Shown: positions 1-46,741 of the stretch, piece by piece
How the letters are laid out: each line of letters opens with the position of its first letter
Numbering within the stretch: position 1 is the first letter of the stretch
Origin: Bacteroidaceae bacterium
GTDB taxonomy: Bacteria; Bacteroidota; Bacteroidia; Bacteroidales; Bacteroidaceae
Length of the DNA: 46,741 nt
NCBI GenBank assembly: GCA_017541265.1
Contig: JAFXZK010000015.1
Coordinates: forward strand, 1-46,741
Direction: 5' to 3'
The notes under the pieces: generated by a model
Told to the model about the DNA's origin: nothing
The model's database searches: none
The model's input: only the letters and a program-made list of their open reading frames with translations
Position numbers and translations under genes: made by a program

Positions 1-3000
1 GAGTGGCGTGCAGATGTACGGTTCAGCTTTCCGTTGTTGTAGGAGTAGTGCAAACGTGTACTGCCTTCCACAAAGAAAAGGTTCTCGTACCTAACTTGCC
101 CATCTAAGCACCCAACTTCAGATGTCTTCACCTGAACACGGAAGCCATAGATACTGCCGATGGCAATGTACGCTTCACAAGTGCGCATTGAGTTGGCTAT
201 GCTGAACAACTTTTCTCCAAGTGCTTTTGCCTTGTCGTCTGCCGTTAGGGGCTTGCCTTCTTTGTTGACTGTCGGCATCGTGAATCCGTCAATCACGAGG
301 TCATTCACCACATTGCCCTCAGAATCTAAGCGACGCGCCTTGTTAAACTTGGCGAGGTCGGCCTTTGCTTCTGCGATGTTGCGCACATGGCACTCGTTTT
401 CGGTTTTGAGATTCTGCATCTTCTCTTCCTGCTCTCGCTGGTCACGGAGATAGCTCTTGCGCTCACCCTCCAGGCTGCCGATGCGCTTTTCAAGTTTGGC
501 ACGCTCAAGCAAGTCGGTGTTGCCACTCAGGATAGCCATGTATTCGGCGAAGTTCATGCCGTTCTCGTCCATTGCACCCTCGTCGATTGTTCGGATGCCC
601 AACTGTCCACGCTTCAACTGGCGTATGAACATCTGTTTATTGTTGAGAAGATTGAACTTGTAGCTATCCAGACTCCTCTCGACTGCGTAAACAATGACAT
701 CCACCTTATTGCCTGCATAAAGCTTCGCCACTTCGTTACCCTTGCGGATTGCCCTACCCTCTCGTTGTTCAAGGTCGGACGGACGCCACGGAGTATCGAG
801 GTGATGAACCGCAACAACCCTCTGCTGGGCATTGACACCAGTACCAAGCATCTGAGTACTACCAAACACAACCCTTACTTTTCCTTCGTTCAGTGCTGCA
901 ATCAGTCGCTGCTTGGCCCTGTCGCACTTGCATTCCTGAATAAAGCGTATCTCATTGGCGGGGATGCCATACTCCCGCACCAGCTTGTGCTTAATCTCGG
1001 AATAGACACTCCAGGCATCATTGTTCTGCCATGTTGAGAGGTCGGAGAAGATAAGCTGTGTGCCTTTCTGTGCATCGTACCTGTCGTAATACTCTTTGAC
1101 GAGTGCTGCACATCGGCTTGCCTTATTTCTCGGATGGTCGCCATACGAGGGGTCAATAAGGCGCATATCAAGGCTCATCTTCCTTGCCATATCAGTTGCA
1201 TACAACATCTTGGCCATCTCCATCTTCTTCCGTCGGTCAGGGTCGTCAGGCATCGGTATGCCTATAACCCTAAAGTCTCCTGATTTTGCAAACTCCATTA
1301 GACGCAGGATGAACTCTTCCTGATCTGGCGTTGGCTTGATGTTCAGCAGCATTGGGTGCTTTGCCGGACGCTCGATGCCAACATCCTCTGCTGTGCGGAA
1401 GTCTGTTATCTCATTGTAGAACATTGCAAGCTCCGGCACCTTGATAAAGTAGCGGAATCGTTCTTTCAGGATAATGGCGTTTGTTATCGAGAACTCAAAT
1501 TCGCTACTTTTCTTTGTAAAAATGGCTGCCCATGCGTCGAAGCAACCGATATTCTGCTTCGCCAAGGCTCTCGGACGGAGATATTTGAACAGGCAATACA
1601 ACTCTGTCAAGCTGTTTGTGACAGTCGTGCCGCTGAGGAAGGTAGCCCCGAGGTCCCTCTGTGTACGCTTCTGAATGGTGCGGATAGCCATAAGCAGGTT
1701 AAATGCACGCTTGCTGCCTTCGGGATTTCCGATGCCTGCCACACGGTCGTGACGGGTTGTGAATTGCAAGTTCTTGAAGATATGACTTTCGTCCACAAAG
1801 ATATGGTCGATACCGAGAAGGCCGAAGTCCACAATGTTATCGGCACGCTTTCTTAAAGACTGTTGGAGTTTCTGAATTTTCACGGCAACGCTTTTTTTGC
1901 GAATCTCCAACCCTCTGCGCATCTTCTTACTTACATCCCATCCCCATGTGCTCATTGCTTCAAGGCTGTCTTCCACTTCCTGCAACTCGTCTTTCAGTTG
2001 TTCCAGTTGGATTACCTCGCTCTGCGGAATACGGCCAAACTGGTCGTGCGACATGATTATACAATCATAATCGTTGTTCTTTGCATTGTTCAGGAACTCC
2101 ACGCGCTGACTGCCGGCATAGTCGCTCTCCTTTGCGAACAATATATTTGCTTGTGGATAAGCTGTGCGATATGTCTCTGCAATGGCACTGACATTCGCCT
2201 TCATGCCGATAATCATTGGCTTGTGGCACAGGCCAAGACGCTTCATTTCGTGAGCGGCAATGCACATAATGAGGGTCTTTCCGCTGCCGACCTCATGGTC
2301 GCAGATGCCCCCACCATTCAGCAACAGCATCCATACACAATCCTTCTGACTGCCGTAGATGTGTTCTATGCCATACTTCTTCTTTAGCCCGTCCATATCT
2401 ATGCCAGGGAATGTCTGATGGCTTCCGTCATATCGCGGCTTGACGAAACAATTAAATCTGCGATTGTAGGCAGCGGCAAGGTCGTCACGGAAATCTTTCG
2501 GCTGACGCTGGAGCCAATCGACAAACCCTTGACGTATCTCTTCAATCTTCGCGTTTGCCAACTGCGTCTTCTCCGCATCCTCTATCTTGATGTAATCGCC
2601 ATCGTCATCCGTCATCTTTTCGCCTTTCTCGTTGCGCTTGTACTTCATCATCTTGGGACAAGTATTATGAAGGGCATGTACCAATAGCTCCATACCGTAG
2701 TAGTCGTTGCTGGCTTCACTGCTTACACAAAACTGTGTCCAGATCTTTTCATTGCCACGATGCACATCTGCTGCATATTGGTCGAGCAAAGGCTGATACT
2801 TCACGGTCACTTCTGCTTTCGCATCGGGCATTGAAAAGAACTCCGAGGCAAACTTCTCATACACCTTCGTACTTATCCAGCGTTCTCCGAGATTAAAGTC
2901 AAGGTCGTCGAATGGGATAGGTGTTGGGATGGCAGCTTCCAAGGCACTGATGGAGCGTTGAACAAGTTCGTTGCCGTCACCCTTTCTCTTGATGCGCTCA

Positions 3001-4655
3001 AGCTTCTCGATTACGTTCCCACTGACAAAGCGAGCCTTTATCTCATATTCCCCATTTAGGGGGTTATAAAATACTTCGTCGCTCAAAGCATCCAGCAGTT
3101 CTTCTGGTGTCATCCCTGTAAGTCCAGCCATATAACCGAGCCTTGGTTCTCCGTACTCATTCAGTGATGCAGCAAGTGCCTCCTGTGCCGTGTCGCAATG
3201 GTTCAGTTCTTCCGTTGCAAAAGCAATAGGCTTCAGCATAATGTCGGCTTTCACATAGCGGAAATCCACCTTACGCTCAATAGCCAACACTTCTGTTACA
3301 TTCAGCCGCTTTGCAACCTGACGGTTGTCTTCGTTGTTCAGGTCGCCATACTTATTTGTGTAGGCATCGTAAAGGGTGTTAAGCTTCTTTCGCAATGCAG
3401 GTTTCTCTTTTCGTTCTGTTGCTTCCTTTTCGTACAGCTCCGTATAGACTTTGCACAGTTCCATCAGTTTCATCTCCTGCCCGGTGTAATGTTGCTTCTT
3501 GCCATTGCTCCGCGATACTGCGGCACCGTGATTGCCGCCTTTGTGGAAGAGGTCAACATCAACATTCGCTGCAATGTCTTTTGCAAGAACGATGCCCATA
3601 TCCCTTGCAATGCCGCTCACGCCGTCACGATGCTCATAGACGAAGCCAGGCTTGCCGTATGGGTCTGTATCAATCTTCTTATCGGTGGCAATAACATGAT
3701 CGGGGTACACCGTAAAGTAGAGGTTGGTCGGGCAGTCGCTATCGTCGTATGTTGTCAGCAGCAGCGATTCATCGGGAGTTAGCGATGTCCTACCGTTGCA
3801 CTTCTGCAACACCAACAAGTCTGTGCCTACTTCCGTGTCTGCATCTTTGAAGAGGTTGTTAGCCAATCGCAGAGCACTTACCAGTTTTGCGTTCTTCAAT
3901 GCTTCACGCAGTTGCCCCATATCGCGGTTGAGATAGTTCGACGTGATGATGTATGCCAGGATGCCACCGTTACGGAGACAGTCAAGTCCCTTCAGCACAT
4001 AGTAGCGGTGTATCATCTTTGCTGCCTCTCTCCGTACAGCGTCGTCGCTATTGGTGTATGCGGGGTCGAACACGCTGATATTGCCAAAGGGGACATTGGT
4101 CGTAACAAGGTCAAAGCGTCCCAGGTCACTTGCAGGGATAGTCTCAAAGCCCTTGCCAATAACCTTTACAAAACGTGTAAATGGCAATGCTTTCATAGAA
4201 CGGTCAAGAAGGAGAGAAGTTAAAACATCCTTTTCGTAGGCGACTACTTCATCCCCATCAATGCCAACCTGCAAAAATGAACCACTGCCAGCAGCAGGGT
4301 CAAGGATATGCTTGCTGTCAATGTGAGCATGGATAAGCGCATCCTGTATTTTGTCCGGAATGGCTTTCGGCGTATAGTACGCCGTGAGCGTGCTTTCCTT
4401 CACGCTTTGCATCCAAGCCTTGAACTCGCGCTCGTCGCTACTCTCATCTTTCAAAAGCTGATGAAGCATGATTGTGTCAAAGAAACAATCAATGTCGCTC
4501 TTCGTCCATGCTGCCGTATCGAGAGGGTTAAGGACAAAGTTCAACCCTCCAAAGCCTGTGTACTTCCTGAGTATGTCAATGTCATACTCGCTCGTTGATG
4601 TTAAAGCGTGGCGCAATGCCTCAATGTTGTCACGAAGTCTTTGTAATTTACTCAT
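1..4655 (-). CDS. N6-adenine methylase / SNF2-type helicase fusion (DarB-like), 3' end beyond window
   Basis: The frame is open from an ATG at 4655 to the left edge, so at least 1551 residues are present and the C terminus is missing. An N-terminal class I SAM methyltransferase is visible: motif I LDPAAGSG (D119) and a catalytic-type N-V-P-F-G at about 187-191. A superfamily II helicase follows, with Walker A EVGSGKT (K793), a DESH box (D955) and a late motif ending REGRAIRKGN. The same architecture is known in phages and conjugative elements, including P1 DarB and the 'N12 class' methylases, where it is linked to protecting incoming DNA from restriction. Its start overlaps the stop of the upstream gene (ATGA), so it is translated as part of the early operon. 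The antirestriction role is inferred; the domain calls are strong. Confidence 0.9.
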   Translation of the reverse strand, partial: MSKLQRLRDNIEALRHALTSTSEYDIDILRKYTGFGGLNFVLNPLDTAAWTKSDIDCFFDTIMLHQLLKDESSDEREFKAWMQSVKESTLTAYYTPKAIPDKIQDALIHAHIDSKHILDPAAGSGSFLQVGIDGDEVVAYEKDVLTSLLLDRSMKALPFTRFVKVIGKGFETIPASDLGRFDLVTTNVPFGNISVFDPAYTNSDDAVRREAAKMIHRYYVLKGLDCLRNGGILAYIITSNYLNRDMGQLREALKNAKLVSALRLANNLFKDADTEVGTDLLVLQKCNGRTSLTPDESLLLTTYDDSDCPTNLYFTVYPDHVIATDKKIDTDPYGKPGFVYEHRDGVSGIARDMGIVLAKDIAANVDVDLFHKGGNHGAAVSRSNGKKQHYTGQEMKLMELCKVYTELYEKEATERKEKPALRKKLNTLYDAYTNKYGDLNNEDNRQVAKRLNVTEVLAIERKVDFRYVKADIMLKPIAFATEELNHCDTAQEALAASLNEYGEPRLGYMAGLTGMTPEELLDALSDEVFYNPLNGEYEIKARFVSGNVIEKLERIKRKGDGNELVQRSISALEAAIPTPIPFDDLDFNLGERWISTKVYEKFASEFFSMPDAKAEVTVKYQPLLDQYAADVHRGNEKIWTQFCVSSEASNDYYGMELLVHALHNTCPKMMKYKRNEKGEKMTDDDGDYIKIEDAEKTQLANAKIEEIRQGFVDWLQRQPKDFRDDLAAAYNRRFNCFVKPRYDGSHQTFPGIDMDGLKKKYGIEHIYGSQKDCVWMLLLNGGGICDHEVGSGKTLIMCIAAHEMKRLGLCHKPMIIGMKANVSAIAETYRTAYPQANILFAKESDYAGSQRVEFLNNAKNNDYDCIIMSHDQFGRIPQSEVIQLEQLKDELQEVEDSLEAMSTWGWDVSKKMRRGLEIRKKSVAVKIQKLQQSLRKRADNIVDFGLLGIDHIFVDESHIFKNLQFTTRHDRVAGIGNPEGSKRAFNLLMAIRTIQKRTQRDLGATFLSGTTVTNSLTELYCLFKYLRPRALAKQNIGCFDAWAAIFTKKSSEFEFSITNAIILKERFRYFIKVPELAMFYNEITDFRTAEDVGIERPAKHPMLLNIKPTPDQEEFILRLMEFAKSGDFRVIGIPMPDDPDRRKKMEMAKMLYATDMARKMSLDMRLIDPSYGDHPRNKASRCAALVKEYYDRYDAQKGTQLIFSDLSTWQNNDAWSVYSEIKHKLVREYGIPANEIRFIQECKCDRAKQRLIAALNEGKVRVVFGSTQMLGTGVNAQQRVVAVHHLDTPWRPSDLEQREGRAIRKGNEVAKLYAGNKVDVIVYAVERSLDSYKFNLLNNKQMFIRQLKRGQLGIRTIDEGAMDENGMNFAEYMAILSGNTDLLERAKLEKRIGSLEGERKSYLRDQREQEEKMQNLKTENECHVRNIAEAKADLAKFNKARRLDSEGNVVNDLVIDGFTMPTVNKEGKPLTADDKAKALGEKLFSIANSMRTCEAYIAIGSIYGFRVQVKTSEVGCLDGQVRYENLFFVEGSTRLHYSYNNGKLNRTSARH

Positions 4656-41431: not shown

Positions 41432-42889
41432 TTAGTTAATCATTCTGTATTTTCTCCTAAGTCTCACGCTCTGATAACGTCCTTTTACATAGAAGTACCT
41501 CCAGAAATTGTTCCCGGGGCTCCCTATACAGGACTTGCGGAAATTGTACGTCTGTCTTCTCGCGCAGAAGCCGAAGTAGCTGTTAAGAACCTGCTCTATG
41601 TGTTGGAGCTTGACGACATCATACTCACACCCACATTCGTCCAGCAGCCGCCCATATCCTTCACATCGCTCCATCATTCTTCCGCATGTCCTGTTTGAGA
41701 GATAGTTTCTTCCGGGCTTTATGAACGTGCCAACAAACAATATGCCATGACTGACAGGTTGAAGGTATCGCTTGTTCTTATGAAGAGCCAGGCGCAGTTT
41801 AATCAGGAAGGCTTCTAACTTCGGAATACTTCTCACCAAGAACGGCAAATCATCGCAGACGATGGCGAAATCATCCACGAACTGCGCCATTCCCCATTTC
41901 TTCCCTCTAAAGATATACTTGACATAGCTGATGAAGAAAGACATGAGGAAGTTCGCGAATAGCTGGGTCGTAAGATTGCCGATAGGCTCTCCTGTAGGCG
42001 AAGTGAAAAGGGACTTGTTCGCGGCCATGTGTTCCTCCCATAGATAGGCTTCCGAATTAAGCACACAGTCTTTTTCGGGATGGTGCATGACAACTACTTC
42101 CGTTGCTCTCAACAGGATGTCCCAATACATATCAATATCGCCAGCGGGATTCTCCTTTCCCTGCACTTCTATCCGATGTCTCCACCTCTTGATGAACCGT
42201 TCCAGAAGATACCAAAGCAAATCCTTGTCAATGCTCATAAAGAAGCCCACAAGGTCGCCACGGAATACCCATGCCGGCTTTCTGTAATTATCGCTAACCC
42301 TGGACATCGCCGCTGCAAGATGTTCTACGGCCTTTTCCGTTCCGTAGCCCTTCCTGCAATTAAAAGAGAGGTCGCCTTGCTCCCTGAACCGATACTCGAA
42401 AAGCGGCTCCAGTCGCAGGCATATCCAGTGATGTACGATGCGGTCTCGGAAGTTGGCCGCGAACACTTCCCGCCATTTCGGATAGCGGACAAGGAAACAG
42501 GTTGAAGTTCCCGGCTTGTACGTCATGGTCCACAGCTCGCGGGCAAGGACAGGAATGTCCGCATCGGCTATCTGCATATATTCGAGTGCCTGAGTTGAGT
42601 TCATCTTTCCTCTTAGGCAGTCGTGATATGCTTCCCATACAGATTCTAAAAAGGAGGGCGGCACAACGTCATCGAATGCGGTGACAGGGCGAACTACGTT
42701 ACTGTTGTACTTGTTGTTGTTGTTCGCGTTACCATTGTTGAAGTTCACGTTCCTCGCGTTGTTACGGTTGTTCTCCGTGCTGCTCCAGTGGTTACTGCCT
42801 TTTTGCGGATTTGCATCTTCGTAACTGAAGGACTCACGTCCCGCAGTAATCCGCCCATTCAATCGACTATGTAGCTCTCGATAGTTCAT
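41432..42889 (-). CDS. DGR reverse transcriptase with the template repeat inside its ORF
   Basis: 485 residues from ATG 42889. After a 30-residue leader, residues 31-72 are encoded by the template repeat (for example SNHWSSTENNRNNAR), then the RT proper begins near PPSFLESVWEAYHDCLRGK. RT hallmarks: YKPGTSTCFLVRYPKWREVF, FRDRIVHHW, GDLVGFFMSID (D212), PIGNLTTQLFANFL (303-309, where DGR enzymes usually have SQ) and the catalytic FVDD (337-340). With Avd it copies TR RNA error-prone at adenines and replaces VR. No Met lies between TR and the RT core, so the fusion product is likely unless translation begins at an alternative codon such as GTG. Confidence 0.92.
   Translation of the reverse strand: MNYRELHSRLNGRITAGRESFSYEDANPQKGSNHWSSTENNRNNARNVNFNNGNANNNNKYNSNVVRPVTAFDDVVPPSFLESVWEAYHDCLRGKMNSTQALEYMQIADADIPVLARELWTMTYKPGTSTCFLVRYPKWREVFAANFRDRIVHHWICLRLEPLFEYRFREQGDLSFNCRKGYGTEKAVEHLAAAMSRVSDNYRKPAWVFRGDLVGFFMSIDKDLLWYLLERFIKRWRHRIEVQGKENPAGDIDMYWDILLRATEVVVMHHPEKDCVLNSEAYLWEEHMAANKSLFTSPTGEPIGNLTTQLFANFLMSFFISYVKYIFRGKKWGMAQFVDDFAIVCDDLPFLVRSIPKLEAFLIKLRLALHKNKRYLQPVSHGILFVGTFIKPGRNYLSNRTCGRMMERCEGYGRLLDECGCEYDVVKLQHIEQVLNSYFGFCARRQTYNFRKSCIGSPGNNFWRYFYVKGRYQSVRLRRKYRMIN
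42674..42799 (-). repeat. DGR template repeat (TR)
   Basis: 126 bp, collinear with 43504-43629 (offset 830). It holds 46 adenines on the coding strand, mostly in AAC/AAT codons. Fourteen of these differ in VR; only one non-adenine position (42742) differs. The 3' 26 nt are identical in both and contain the presumed initiation site of mutagenic homing. Confidence 0.95.
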
Positions 42890-42899
42890 CGTTCAACGC

Positions 42900-43337
42900 T
42901 TAACCGTTAATGCCTATCCCCTGACTCTTGAAATAGTCCCTAAGCTTGACAGACTGCCCAGCGACTTTTTGTGCCAGCCTCCTTATTGCCTTCTTCCTGT
43001 CCTTGCCTATCACGCCAAGCTGCGACATGATAACCGTATCGTCCATGATGTCCTCGGCAAGTACCTTCGCATAGCTCAGGTTCTCTGCCCTTGTCACCTC
43101 GCTACCACTCTCCAAAGCGAGGGCGAGACTCTGCTTCGCATTGCTCACGGAAACAAGCATTTCGTCGAAATACTTTGCGTATTTTCGCGGTGCATCTGCC
43201 ATCGACTGAACAATGAGGTATTTCAAGTTTGCGGCATCCCTATAAATTTGGGTCTGCCGCATTGACTTGTGGCTGCGTTTCTTCTCCTTGCTCTGCTCCA
43301 CCACTTCCTGCGGAATCACTACTTTGCTCTCGTTCAT
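42900..43337 (-). CDS. avd: DGR accessory variability determinant (Avd-like)
   Basis: 145 residues, helical and basic. From about residue 35 it reads as a four-helix bundle: AANLKYLIVQSMADAPRKYAK, then SVSNAKQSLALALE, then ENLSYAKVLAEDIMDD, then LGVIGKDRKKAIRRLAQKV and RDYFKSQG, the layout of Avd. Avd forms a pentameric barrel that binds the RT and the TR RNA. Position between VR gene and TR matches the Bordetella phage order. Basic N-terminal extension of about 25 residues; an internal Met at 43262 is an alternative start. Confidence 0.8.
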   Translation of the reverse strand: MNESKVVIPQEVVEQSKEKKRSHKSMRQTQIYRDAANLKYLIVQSMADAPRKYAKYFDEMLVSVSNAKQSLALALESGSEVTRAENLSYAKVLAEDIMDDTVIMSQLGVIGKDRKKAIRRLAQKVAGQSVKLRDYFKSQGIGING

Positions 43338-43422
43338 ATATTTCTGTTTCGGCCTCCAGGATGCCGTTTCTTTCTGTTATAGTTAGTTTCCTCCCTGCGA
43401 AATGATATACACTTTGTCTCAT
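43240..43422 (-). CDS. Small protein overlapping avd, 60 aa
   Basis: ATG at 43422 (MRQSVYHFAGRKLTITERNG), then an acidic Ser/Gly/Gln-rich tail. It starts 67 nt after the variable gene and overlaps the avd start by 98 nt in another frame. The first 30 residues look protein-like; the tail may simply reflect the overlap. Possible DGR accessory gene, low certainty. Confidence 0.4.
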   Translation of the reverse strand: MRQSVYHFAGRKLTITERNGILEAETEIYEREQSSDSAGSGGAEQGEETQPQVNAADPNL

Positions 43423-43443
43423 ACTCGCTTAATTTAAGTTGGG

Positions 43444-43469
43444 GGCGACGGTCTTTAAGGACCGCCGCC
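43444..43469 (-). terminator. Hairpin after the DGR variable gene
   Basis: Minus-strand 10-bp stem (arm GGCGGCGGTC) with one G.U pair and a CTTAAA loop. No T-tract follows, so it may be a partial terminator or part of the DGR target structure rather than a full stop. Confidence 0.45.
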
Positions 43470-43483
43470 AAATAAAAGGAATG

Positions 43484-43497
43484 GTGCCTTACGGCAC
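43484..43497 (-). promoter_or_regulatory. DGR target-site hairpin across the stop codon of the variable gene
   Basis: GTGCC-GTAA-GGCAC on the coding strand, starting 6 nt after the VR end; the TAA stop lies in the loop. Bordetella-type DGRs need a hairpin at this place for efficient retrohoming. Stem is 5 bp, shorter than the known ones. Confidence 0.65.
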
Positions 43498-46400
43498 AAA
43501 TCTGAATGCGGTGACAGGGCGAACTACGTAACTGCCGTACTTGCCGTAGTTGCCCGCGTAACCATTGTTGACGTACACGTACCTCGCGTTGTTACGGTAG
43601 TACTCCGTGCTGCTCCAGTGGTGACTGCCAGAACTTATGGGAATAGTCCTGCCGCGAGCGATTGCATTGGCAAATAGCGGGAGCTGCGCTTCGAGTGCCA
43701 CATTTTCGTTTGCGTAGGTAGCGGAAGGTGCGCTGCTGGTGTTGTAGGCAGCACGGCTGTTTGCCATGAAGTTGAAGATCCTTGCCAGTAAGCCGCTCGA
43801 CGGAAGCATCCACTTCCCTCGCTTGTAGCTCTCATGCAGCTTGTCCTCGTCAATAAGCGAACCGCTAATGTCAGCAGGACACCACACATTGCACCGACGG
43901 CTTGCCATGAACAGCAATTGCCTGTACCTTGAAGGCTTCGTCGCTCCGTAGGTATCAATCACCTTCTGGACAATCAAATCTGCGATGTCGTGCAGGCCGG
44001 TAGTCGTGAGAGGTATGCCCTCTGAAGTGCAATGTCCGGCTGCCCTCAGCGTCGCGTAATCATCCTGCGAGATGTTGAGCACTTGCAGCGTAGCCTTCAG
44101 TACGGTATCGGCGTAGGACATCAGTACGACATTCTCCTCCTTCGTCTGGAAGTTATTCATGTAGTTCTGACTGTATGTCGCATAGCCATCGTTTGCCACG
44201 TTGCTCTCGTCCTGCATGGCGATACCACCGCCTGCTGCCGTGACTGCTGCTGCATCTTTGCGGATGTACTGGTCGCCAGTCATATTCGTAAGTGGCGTAT
44301 CAAATACGTCCGTCTTATAGGTCGAATCACCGCCATACGTCACACTGCTTGGCTTCGTCCAGCTCTGAACGGCCTGAAGGACTGCATTCAGCACGGCATC
44401 GTTGTATTCTCCGTTAGTCTTGGCATCGGTCAGTCCGTCCGTTTGCGCTGCCTGCGGATAGATACCCCACGAGCTTTCATAGCCACCGCCATCCTGAACA
44501 CCACTCGTCGGGAAGGAAGCATCGGCGGCACTCAGGATGTCGAGGTCATACACCGTCTTTCCGTCAACTTGTGTCTGTGTTCTGCGAATGACAACGCCCG
44601 CCAGCTGCTTGGAGGCATCATTTGTGTTATCGAACTGCCCGTCCGTCCAAGCGTAGTCGCCTACTTCAGGAATACGATTCCACAAACCGATGACCTTTTC
44701 TGCCGTTCTTGTCTCTCCGCTCGTATTGGTAAGGGTTACCCTCACGTTCAGGACAATGTTACTTACCGCATTGCCCTTCAGTTTAAGGTGGAGGACCGGA
44801 CTGTACGGGTCCTGGAACTCTGCATAAGTGCTTGCAGAGGAATCAGTCAGCTCCCACACTACATCAGGAACAGGATTACCCTGTCCGTTGATCGCTACTG
44901 CCACATCGTTGCCGCTTGACACAAGCAATGCGAGGTCATTGAAGTTGTCATTTGCATCGAGGTCGTAGCTATCGGAACCAGTATTTGTGTTGATGTACTT
45001 CTTGCCCTCAATGCTGATTGCACCTGCACTGATACTTGTGCCAGAGAAGCGGACAAAGAGAGGATTATCCGTGGAACGGATATTGCCGTACCTCACAATA
45101 AGCTTTGCCACGTCCTCATAATAGAGGATGCCCTGCGCACCTGTGACGCAAGCGATACTTCCTGCAAGCTCGCAGATGCCGCTATCGCCAATACCGATGA
45201 GCCACCTGATTACGTCACCCTCAACAGGCTGTGAGAGCCAGTCTATACCGTTTATCTTCAGCACAGAGATTGGAGACTCTGCCTCAATCATGGCAAGCAC
45301 ATTGGCACGAGTTGCATTTGCCAGCAGAGGTGAGCCTGTCACAACAAACTGTGCCAGGTCGTCATAGCCCTGCATATCGAGCGTCGCCAAAGATGGCTGT
45401 GCAACAAGCGAAAGGGCCGTAAGCGTCTTTGGCAGATGCAGTGTAGTAAGCGTTGCCGTTTCCGGCAAGGTGACGGACTGTGCAATCGTATTGCGAAGGT
45501 CTATCTCCTCGGCCAGTGTCAGTCGGGACAAGTTCAGCGGCACCATAGCCGTACTGCCAGTTGTCGTACATCCATTCAAGGACAGTTTGCGCAGGCGTGT
45601 AGCGCCATTCTGGTCGTTGGATATTTGCAGGTTGGCAGGCTTCGAGAAAGCAGGTGCATAGCCCGCCTTCTGTGCATCGTCGAGTGCTTCATACTGTTCA
45701 CGGGTAATGCTGCCGCCGCCTTGCGTCGTGCTATAGTACGTCGTAGGCTCTGCGATGAACTCTGTCAGGCGTGTACCCTGGATAGAGAAGCTGCTGGCGT
45801 TGATGGTCTTGTCGCCGAGGTTCCCGACGGAACGGTAGTAGTTCAGTCCGCGAAGCTCAATAGGATAGGTGTTGGCGAATTGGAATGTCGTCGTATAGGT
45901 AAAAGCCTCTCCTGGTGCAGTGCGCCTGCGTGTAGCATTCGTCTGGCTCTGCCATGTGAAGACAGGGAAGAGATATTGGTGGGGCTTGACCGTGAACGTC
46001 TGGTCGGGCGTGCCGCCGTTGGGCAATGCCACGGAGTTGACGGCCAGTGTCGCAACAGCATCACCAATGCCCGTGCTGCCCGTACTCGTTCCTGTCGTGG
46101 CGGCGAATTCTCCGAATCCTGCGTAGGATGCCATATAGATAAGGCGACGCTTCATGAACTGAATCTCTGCCTCTAACTGGTCGCCCATCGACTGCGCCAA
46201 TGGGTCAGCCTCTCCGTTACGTCCTACGAAGCCCAGCATGGCTGGGAACTCATAGCGGATTCTTGCCGTCTCATTGAAGGCGACTTGCGGGAAGTAACGC
46301 TGTATGTCGAAGAGATAGCGGTTCAAGGTGCGCCATACGCCGCCTTGCGTATTGCTCTCGGCAGAGCCGATGCCGCCCGTGAGACTGAGCATTGAGCTGA

Positions 46401-46741
46401 GTATGGAGCCAACGGCATTGGCAATCGTGCCGTTTTCCTCCCACATTGCTTCCACGAGGTCAAAGAGCGTGTTGAGCATACCGTCATAGCAGGACTCGTT
46501 CTCCGCTCTCACGGTGTCATTGTCGTCATACGGATTCATGCGGTCAACGTAGTATGGCTTTGTCTGGAAGCCGAAGTTGTCCGTTGCAATTGTCGTGTCA
46601 ACGTCATCCTGATGCAGCTCAATGAGGTGCGTCACAGGGTCAACAACATAATAGGTGTTCTTTGAGCAGTTGTCCGTTCCTGCAATGAAATGGTTTTGGA
46701 AGGCATAGTGGAAGCGCAAGCTCTTCACGTTAAAATACGCA
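43489..46741 (-). CDS. DGR variable protein with C-type-lectin-like C terminus; 5' end beyond window
   Basis: A GTG at 46728 gives 1079 residues, but the frame stays open to the right edge, so the true start is probably outside. Regions in order (numbered from the GTG): an N-terminal virion-like domain (about 1-220); leucine-rich-repeat-like stretch (about 370-460, LRKLSLNGC, LHLPKTLTALSL, LATLDMQGY); a beta/Ig-like central part (about 560-690); and a C-terminal lectin fold (GKWMLPSSGLLARI...HHWSSTEYYRNNARY...VRPVTAF). The VR covers residues about 1034-1075. Likely a tail or receptor-binding protein whose binding loops are diversified by the DGR. Stop TAA in a hairpin loop. Confidence 0.85.
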   Translation of the reverse strand, partial: AYFNVKSLRFHYAFQNHFIAGTDNCSKNTYYVVDPVTHLIELHQDDVDTTIATDNFGFQTKPYYVDRMNPYDDNDTVRAENESCYDGMLNTLFDLVEAMWEENGTIANAVGSILSSMLSLTGGIGSAESNTQGGVWRTLNRYLFDIQRYFPQVAFNETARIRYEFPAMLGFVGRNGEADPLAQSMGDQLEAEIQFMKRRLIYMASYAGFGEFAATTGTSTGSTGIGDAVATLAVNSVALPNGGTPDQTFTVKPHQYLFPVFTWQSQTNATRRRTAPGEAFTYTTTFQFANTYPIELRGLNYYRSVGNLGDKTINASSFSIQGTRLTEFIAEPTTYYSTTQGGGSITREQYEALDDAQKAGYAPAFSKPANLQISNDQNGATRLRKLSLNGCTTTGSTAMVPLNLSRLTLAEEIDLRNTIAQSVTLPETATLTTLHLPKTLTALSLVAQPSLATLDMQGYDDLAQFVVTGSPLLANATRANVLAMIEAESPISVLKINGIDWLSQPVEGDVIRWLIGIGDSGICELAGSIACVTGAQGILYYEDVAKLIVRYGNIRSTDNPLFVRFSGTSISAGAISIEGKKYINTNTGSDSYDLDANDNFNDLALLVSSGNDVAVAINGQGNPVPDVVWELTDSSASTYAEFQDPYSPVLHLKLKGNAVSNIVLNVRVTLTNTSGETRTAEKVIGLWNRIPEVGDYAWTDGQFDNTNDASKQLAGVVIRRTQTQVDGKTVYDLDILSAADASFPTSGVQDGGGYESSWGIYPQAAQTDGLTDAKTNGEYNDAVLNAVLQAVQSWTKPSSVTYGGDSTYKTDVFDTPLTNMTGDQYIRKDAAAVTAAGGGIAMQDESNVANDGYATYSQNYMNNFQTKEENVVLMSYADTVLKATLQVLNISQDDYATLRAAGHCTSEGIPLTTTGLHDIADLIVQKVIDTYGATKPSRYRQLLFMASRRCNVWCPADISGSLIDEDKLHESYKRGKWMLPSSGLLARIFNFMANSRAAYNTSSAPSATYANENVALEAQLPLFANAIARGRTIPISSGSHHWSSTEYYRNNARYVYVNNGYAGNYGKYGSYVVRPVTAFRFVP
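43504..43629 (-). repeat. DGR variable repeat (VR)
   Basis: 126 bp at the 3' end of the variable gene. Relative to TR it has 14 adenine-site changes, giving one N to H, seven N to Y and three N to G, plus one T to G change (F to V). Five Asn codons are unchanged. The framework residues HWSSTE, VRPVTAF and so on are untouched. Confidence 0.95.

Follow-up and report, generated by a model that had tools for sequence, protein, structure and literature searches.

The template of a diversity-generating retroelement (DGR) is usually presented as a non-coding RNA, and the locus studied here raises the question of whether a template repeat (TR) can also be translated, as the N terminus of its own reverse transcriptase (RT). 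The stretch of DNA that we analysed (the window) comprises 46,741 nt of contig JAFXZK010000015.1, from a Bacteroidaceae bacterium (GCA_017541265.1). It holds a DGR made of a target gene with its VR, then a gene for an Avd-fold protein, then an RT ORF that contains the TR:

43489..46728, minus strand: DGR target gene, an ORF of 1079 aa with the VR at its 3' end
43504..43629, minus strand: VR, the 126-nt repeat of the TR
43484..43497, minus strand: small hairpin directly 3' of the VR, across the target stop codon, read from the sequence
42900..43337, minus strand: avd-like gene, 145 aa, assigned by position and by its AF2 four-helix fold
41432..42889, minus strand: RT ORF of 485 aa, codons 1-72 being leader and TR, assigned by ORF, RVT_1, PHROG 1423 and fold
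42805..42854, minus strand: 5' stem-loop RNA element within the RT leader, from covariation, frame-locked span, fold and covariance-model match
42848-42854 pairing with 42805-42811, minus strand: outer stem of this element
42838-42847 pairing with 42824-42833, minus strand: its inner hairpin
42812-42823, minus strand: its 12-nt bulge
42674..42799, minus strand: TR, RT codons 31-72 in the target's frame, from repeat comparison
42664..42666, minus strand: in-frame GTG after the TR (codon 76), a rival RT start codon
41435..42658, minus strand: RT fold, residues 78-485, from AF2

By comparing TR (42674-42799) and VR (43504-43629), we found an ungapped direct repeat of 126 nt with 88% identity, in which 14 of the 15 mismatches fall at adenines of the TR when read on the minus strand (7 A>T, 6 A>G and 1 A>C), the single exception being a T>G. 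This near-repeat with mismatches at TR adenines comes together with a DGR-type RT and an accessory Avd protein. The RT matches Pfam RVT_1 at 2.5e-8 and PHROG 1423 at 2.3e-55, and the top Foldseek match of its predicted fold is the BPP-1 DGR RT (8ub7_A, E 4.0e-15). For the avd-like protein, AF2 predicts a four-helix fold that matches Avd 4dwl_C (TM 0.86 by target length, E 0.034), although its best structural matches are to 2gsc; no family was found for it in Pfam or PHROG, and BLASTP links it weakly to its counterparts in the phage BS-TP1 and the Bacuni phages (E 0.008 and 0.023, respectively). No Pfam domain was found in the 1079-aa target protein. Hairpins resembling the one that follows the VR are present in some relatives.

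The TR starts 90 nt past the RT ATG at 42889, and 141 nt lead from the VR start through the target stop codon, the VR ending 15 nt short of the ORF end, stop counted. Since both starts are 0 mod 3, TR and VR share their reading frame. Between the TR and the first RT helix (residues 78-92 in the AF2 model) there are 15 nt; no ATG occurs from the TR to the fold, and the next Met is residue 96, already inside it. An in-frame TR within the RT ORF is therefore confirmed, as the first-pass annotation had described it: at residues 31-72, in the frame of the VR and with no Met before the RT core. The GTG start that it considered near 42676 is not there, the in-frame GTGs being at 42664 (codon 76, past the TR) and 42748 (codon 48, within the TR). 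It had also pictured an Asn-rich copy of the target's lectin loop on the RT; the TR does form codons 31-72, but residues 1-73 have an AF2 pLDDT below 50 and are predicted to be disordered, and we rejected a lectin domain in this tail on that prediction. The Lcl_C match of the TR-coded part (1.7e-4) is below the curated cut-off. Overlap of the TR with the end of the RT ORF, the definition of DiGReF group 3, became a named class of DGRs in 2012; the TR of the window overlaps the RT ORF in this way, at its 5' end.

Then, we asked how the TR lies in related loci, using viral scans (in one, the best 80 of at least 119), whose patterns included TR-derived ones and may favour fused loci, and a genome scan with RT patterns only. 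The best 80 of 165 in the genome scan comprised 26 fused with an ATG, 1 fused with an alternative start, 2 open without a start, 25 separate, 6 partial, 1 in another frame and 19 without a TR. The census left out L016-L049 (short unoriented duplicates), L117 and rows with an RT score below 300. After dereplication at 90% RT identity, the matches listed gave 142 RTs; the TR finder returned no TR in 21 of them and a TR in 121, of which 61 are fused in frame with an upstream ATG, 3 are fused with GTG/TTG only, 6 are open without a start, 7 carry the TR within the ORF but in a different frame, 11 overlap partially and 33 are separate. Among these matches, the separate TRs are mixed in frame relative to the RT (10, 9 and 14 in frames 0, 1 and 2), whereas 31 of the 33 RTs most similar to that of the window (score at least 700, TR found) have a frame-0 TR preceded by an in-frame ATG, so that chance is not a serious option. 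The fusion group consists of phages and prophages of Bacteroidota from gut and rumen.

In an RT-core tree (a quick tree, with some long branches), the window falls in a clade of 56 members among the matches listed (SH-aLRT 99). There, the TR lies in frame downstream of an in-frame ATG in 47, is fused with an alternative start in 1, is open without a start in 1 and was not found in 5; the remaining 2 were scored as separate, but one of these, L153, has a fused TR and a frameshift in its RT core, leaving L075 as the sole clearly unfused member. Over 4250 codons we counted 225 and 316 stops in the other two frames and 0 in the RT frame; the last value is zero by construction, and it is the other-frame stops and the clade fractions that are informative on openness. 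Judged from these sequences, the fusion is inherited in the clade, with TR frame and upstream ATG kept. The conservation of the TR frame in relatives, which had been proposed as a check, thus turned out in favour of a TR that is read into the N terminus of its own RT. The fusion is a trait of the clade and not of this locus alone. Our literature search found no report of a conserved TR/RT fusion or of a translated hairpin.

The first-pass annotation overlooked that the leader before the TR is a covarying RNA hairpin. In a first set of 20 sequences, 92.4% of the cells were paired, with a covariation of 0.663 against 0.103-0.181 for slid pairings; in a second set of 19, the values were 96.1% and 0.616 against 0.022-0.144. 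Judged by these alignments, the leader is structured as RNA and shows strong compensatory covariation. The outer-stem span is 50, 53, 56, 59 or 62 nt in the first set (20/20, one phase) and 45, 48, 51, 60 or 63 nt in the second (19/19, one phase), that is, it varies in steps of three only in all 39 elements measured. Within 60 nt from the motif, stops occur in the RT frame in 0 of the 39 elements, compared to 24 and 28 in the other frames. The element of the window scores 81.6 bits against a covariance model to which it contributed itself, and 5 of the 56 clade members among the matches listed matched neither RNA model (R1 or R2). Folding energy was below the shuffle mean in 4 of the 6 elements folded (z -1.85 to -3.89) and not in L170 and L162 (z 0.24 and 0.39). 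A search of 90 sources with R1 returned 4 matches, all of them clade members and none outside the clade; R2 matched 11 sources outside it at E 5e-5 to 0.4, the weakest being unconvincing alone. Elements related to the leader RNA adjoin the TR in some non-clade DGRs, with mixed lengths. Given the frame-locked span inside the clade and these mixed lengths outside, it seems that a template RNA was drawn into the coding frame and kept both roles.

As protein, the leader is weakly constrained, with a pN/pS of 0.61 compared to 0.30-0.34 in the core. We rejected the reading of LNGR.TG in the leader as an independent protein motif, given this pN/pS and given that the 5' arm of the RNA accounts for much of it. 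Synonymous identity in 15 sequences (without L146, L006 and L147) exceeds expectation by 0.25-0.39 over codons 1-75 and by 0.15 over codons 76-90, then by 0.00-0.10. The window and L146 hardly differ between about -660 and +840 nt relative to the TR, and this pair therefore says little on constraint. Downstream of the TR, RNAalifold found no conserved pairs of a spacer-like RNA, and the synonymous constraint fades by about codon 90. The only Rfam match was DnaX-like, between target and avd, and sub-threshold (22.5 bits, cut-off 35).

These data bear on where translation of the RT begins. In the window, a late start would lie at one of two GTGs, 42664 or 42748 (inside the TR), with leader and TR untranslated or separately read and the open frame a by-product of the open VR frame. 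The window keeps both GTGs, the one at codon 76 precedes the first RT helix by two codons, and its GTG-Pro context is common to the window, L146, L050, L004, L007, L005, L008, L151 and L153. Moreover, 5 of the 47 fused relatives among the matches listed have an ATG between TR and RT fold, and 26 have GTG/TTG only. The other 16, however, have no ATG, GTG or TTG there, which means that their RT begins inside the TR, where a GTG or in some an ATG occurs, or upstream of it. Also against a late start, the hairpin span moves in threes only (39/39), and an in-frame ATG lies at most 30 nt from the avd stop in 47 of 51 clade members among the matches listed, against a high background of 1290 of 2800 random RT-core points (46%), with an exact ATGA overlap of avd stop and RT start in 9. 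Even the unfused L075 has a TR ORF that begins 4 nt inside the avd end. We therefore regard a late start as improbable.

Alternatively, the RT might be translated through the TR while a separate short transcript serves as working template, the copy in the message being a passenger and ribosomes and RT not competing. RNA-level constraint is over by about codon 90, which fits a short template RNA; on the other hand, in most clade members among the matches listed avd and the RT start run into or almost abut each other, so that a promoter would hardly fit immediately upstream of the element, and we find this option rather doubtful. The translated tail may instead have a job of its own, such as holding the nascent RT on its message or binding target or Avd. 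Its retention in 47 of the 56 clade members among the matches listed speaks for such a job, but the predicted disorder, the leader pN/pS and the existence of L075 without a tail make it a poor candidate. What we consider likely is that the template RNA, composed of the 5' stem-loop and the TR, sits inside the RT reading frame and is both translated as the front end of the RT and used as template.

Comparison with known systems places this layout. The window resembles BPP-1 in the order target-VR, avd, TR and RT, in the RT and Avd folds, in the hairpin 3' of the VR and in a coding 5' flank of the template (avd). In BPP-1, however, the TR (2887-3020) abuts avd and lies 144 nt from brt (1756-2742), and the spacer between TR and RT is described as structured, recruiting RT-Avd and priming cDNA (PMC12875486). 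Such a non-coding spacer is absent in the window, where the TR is part of the RT ORF and the first RT helix begins at residue 78; the conserved structure found in its group is 5' of the TR, and R2 gave no match on BPP-1 (at most 5 bits). The Bacuni phages of Bacteroides uniformis (L003) have a related RT (35% identity) and a TR between avd and RT, in what the authors call a "TR containing gene (ORF 24)" (PMC8143477), but this is a separate ORF with the TR in another frame and a stop overlapping the RT ATG by 4 nt. The isolated Bacteroides phage BS-TP1 (L001), whose name was absent from the papers listed by our literature search, shares the fused layout with the TR in frame 0; its RT is 46% identical to that of the window. 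The RT CDS, as deposited, begins upstream of the TR and shares 14 nt with the four-helix gene before it, and its RNA element matches R1 at 65.2 bits. Quimbyvirus, another Bacteroidota phage, also has an odd reading arrangement of its DGR RT, but there the gene is split over three frames with proposed frameshifts, and the accessible part of its description contains no mention of TR translation (PMC8008677).

For the translated template that we favour, ribosomes ending avd would restart at the ATG near its stop, traverse the stem-loop and the TR in the target's frame and then enter the RT fold, the first ~73 residues being a disordered passenger tail. While untranslated, the same RNA would fold the stem-loop and act as template, so that the two uses may compete. 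Because TR and RT leave no space between them for a non-coding spacer like that of BPP-1, the element would, by analogy with BPP-1, be expected to delimit the template at its 5' end or to anchor the RT-Avd complex. More tentatively, the RNA could be under three constraints at once, as stem-loop structure, as adenine-coded template and as ORF of its own enzyme, with silencing and ribosome gating as possible consequences. In that case, an RT could arise only where the template reads open in the target's frame: stops or frameshifts in the TR would silence the mutator before they reach the target by copying, and the passage of ribosomes through the hairpin would decide when the RNA is copied.

Together, these observations indicate that a large clade in Bacteroidota, to which an isolated phage is related, retains the template in frame within the RT gene, and that a folded RNA evolves there in codon-sized steps. 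The N termini of annotated DGR RTs may hold template sequence and call for caution. The fused layout also poses the questions of what defines the template ends without a spacer, and of whether hypermutation is regulated or quality-checked by the translation of its template.

The DGR cassette lies on the minus strand, where we placed these features:

46728-43489, minus strand: DGR target gene (ORF), with VR near its 3' end
43504-43629, minus strand: VR, 126-nt ungapped repeat with the template repeat (TR), 88% identity
43337-42900, minus strand: 145-aa ORF, Avd-like (predicted fold)
42889-41432, minus strand: reverse transcriptase (RT) ORF (RVT_1; PHROG 1423)
42674-42799, minus strand: TR, 126-nt ungapped repeat with VR, 88% identity

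This element is a DGR. TR adenines are the site of 14 of the 15 TR/VR mismatches, the RT matches both RVT_1 (Pfam) and PHROG 1423, and the PDB structure nearest to its AlphaFold model is the BPP-1 DGR RT. The 145-aa protein found no family match in Pfam or PHROG, and its predicted fold is Avd-like. The first-pass annotation had placed the TR in frame inside the RT ORF, in the same frame as VR in the target, and we could confirm this: RT codons 31-72 are the TR, read in the target's frame. Downstream of VR, a hairpin (43484-43497, minus strand) spans the target stop codon and is followed by a GC-rich one (43444-43469); comparable layouts occur in several relatives. A sub-threshold Rfam match to the DnaX frameshift element (43346-43399, minus strand; 22.5 bits, cut-off 35, E 0.068) is probably due to chance.

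Relatives were drawn from phages, viral contigs, genome contigs and related genomes, and their RT ORF, TR, VR and frame were placed by script. An RT score of at least 300 gave 186 rows, dereplicated at 90% RT identity to 142, with a TR found in 121. Among the matches listed, 61 of these 121 had the TR in frame and preceded by an in-frame ATG, 3 had GTG/TTG only and 6 were open without a start; the TR lay inside the ORF in another frame in 7, overlapped it partially in 11 and was separate in 33, where its frame was mixed (10/9/14). The RTs closest to the window (score at least 700, TR found) were fused in 31 of 33 cases, again among the matches listed.

A quick tree built from the RT core of 141 rows places the window in a clade of 56 (SH-aLRT 99). 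Conservation of the TR frame among relatives, raised as a check in the first-pass annotation, was borne out here, with 47 of the 56 members fused with an upstream ATG; one more is fused with an alternative start, one is open without a start, 5 have no TR found and 2 scored as separate. One of these two, L153 (a MAG), keeps leader (the RT ORF codons before the TR), TR and RT start in one frame and carries a frameshift within the RT core, reflecting an inactive RT or an assembly error. The other, L075, is unfused: its TR ORF begins 4 nt inside the avd end and terminates before the RT, which has a separate ATG 8 nt further on. From the tree, the fusion looks old within the clade, with one clear split (L075). 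Outside the clade, 14 relatives are fused with ATG and the TR is in frame 0 in 21 of the 28 having it inside the ORF; we do not lean on these cases, since the VR frame is open there in any case, and stops are common in the other frames.

The window and L146 share a near-identical block from about -660 to +840 nt around the TR, and diverge more in the RT 3' half and upstream target, which suggests a recent exchange of the cassette core. The window's genome (G000) also holds a second fused DGR (L050, C2:44031-45485) with an 81% identical RT and its own avd-like gene, TR and VR. Remote second VRs lie on two other contigs: one on C58 (L061, +4830) matches the window TR at 102/126 positions (17/24 mismatches at A), and one on C119 (L062, +4839) matches the TR of the C2 copy at 104/124 (16/20 at A). 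Several non-A mismatches fall in the first 6 nt.

Where does RT translation start? The window leader ATG lies 10 nt past the avd stop, and an in-frame ATG within 30 nt of that stop was found in 47 of 51 clade members tested, compared with 1290/2800 positions drawn at random from the RT core; start and stop overlap exactly as ATGA in 9 of the 51. The window RT could instead start late, as it belongs to the GTG/TTG-only group, with in-frame GTGs after the TR (42664) and inside it (42748). However, the stretch from TR to RT fold lacks ATG, GTG and TTG alike in 16 of the 47 fused members (26 have GTG/TTG only there, 5 an ATG), so that in these 16 the RT must start inside or upstream of the TR; a late start is therefore unlikely as a rule.

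Starting upstream would add a tail to the RT that reads as a passenger. In the AlphaFold model (46 sequences, mean pLDDT 84.6), residues 1-73 score below 50, the TR-coded segment is predicted to be disordered and the first RT helix begins at residue 78. Leader pN/pS is 0.61 versus 0.30-0.34 for the core (18 sequences); judged from these ratios, protein-level constraint on the tail outside the TR is weak.

At the nucleotide level, the excess of synonymous codon identity over expectation across 15 relatives is 0.25-0.39 for codons 1-75, 0.15 for codons 76-90 and 0.00-0.10 beyond. The leader DNA is laid out as an outer stem, a 12-nt bulge and an inner hairpin. With pairs assigned by eye from the tested sequences themselves, which inflates pairing more than covariation, 92.4% of cells are paired in the window subclade (20 sequences) and 96.1% in the sister subclade (19 sequences). 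Pairs were altered on both sides somewhere in 14/17 and 9/12 cases, respectively, and covariation was 0.663 versus 0.103-0.181 for slid pairings in the former and 0.616 versus 0.022-0.144 in the latter. Covariance models found the element in 51 of 56 clade members (E ≤0.1), 39 of which had built the models. The window minimum-energy fold reproduces the same stems; folding six elements alone gave energies under the mean of the shuffles for four (z -1.85 to -3.89) but not for the other two. On this comparative evidence, the leader is an RNA element.

The outer stem spans 50/53/56/59/62 nt in 20/20 sequences of the window subclade and 45/48/51/60/63 nt in 19/19 of the sister subclade, and model matches exceed the window's by 63 nt in L154 and L070 and by 54 nt in L075. 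Over the 60 nt from the motif, a stop in the RT frame occurs in 0 of 39 elements, and one in each of the two other frames in 24 and 28 of them. Outside the clade, 11 sources gave a match to R2, one of the two covariance models; the element ends no more than 7 nt from the TR start in them, and match lengths (62-75 nt) fall into each of the three residue classes (6, 4 and 1 matches). Because four of these sources (L106, L198, L203, L218) are themselves open through the TR in frame, and L106, L198 and L214 are highly similar to one another, the contrast between frame-locked lengths inside the clade and mixed lengths outside is suggestive and does not amount to a formal test. Read most simply, a template RNA carrying a 5' stem-loop would have existed first, with the RT reading frame extending through it later. 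Outside the fused clade, a related stem-loop adjoins the TR in L183, L174, L176, L189, L015 and L108 (E 5e-5 to 0.16), and such an element may be a general feature of DGR templates in Bacteroidota.

For BPP-1, PMC12875486 describes a spacer 3' of the TR that brings in RT-Avd and provides cDNA priming; it places the end of reverse transcription at a motif in the avd 3' end. The TR-brt distance in BPP-1 is 144 nt, whereas the window has no such spacer. A 'TR containing gene' distinct from the RT is described in Bacuni phages (PMC8143477), and an RT spread over three frames in Quimbyvirus (PMC8008677). Our literature search, with many subscription papers outside its reach and hence no proof of absence, returned neither a conserved in-frame TR/RT fusion nor a covarying, translated 5' element. 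We regard the TR/RT fusion as a conserved form of an already known system.

An RNAalifold search downstream of the TR found no structure that would account for cDNA priming. As to the 5' element, it may mark the template 5' end or hold the RNP. We propose that one RNA would be used in turn by ribosomes and by the RT, and a TR broken in frame would then be unable to yield RT.
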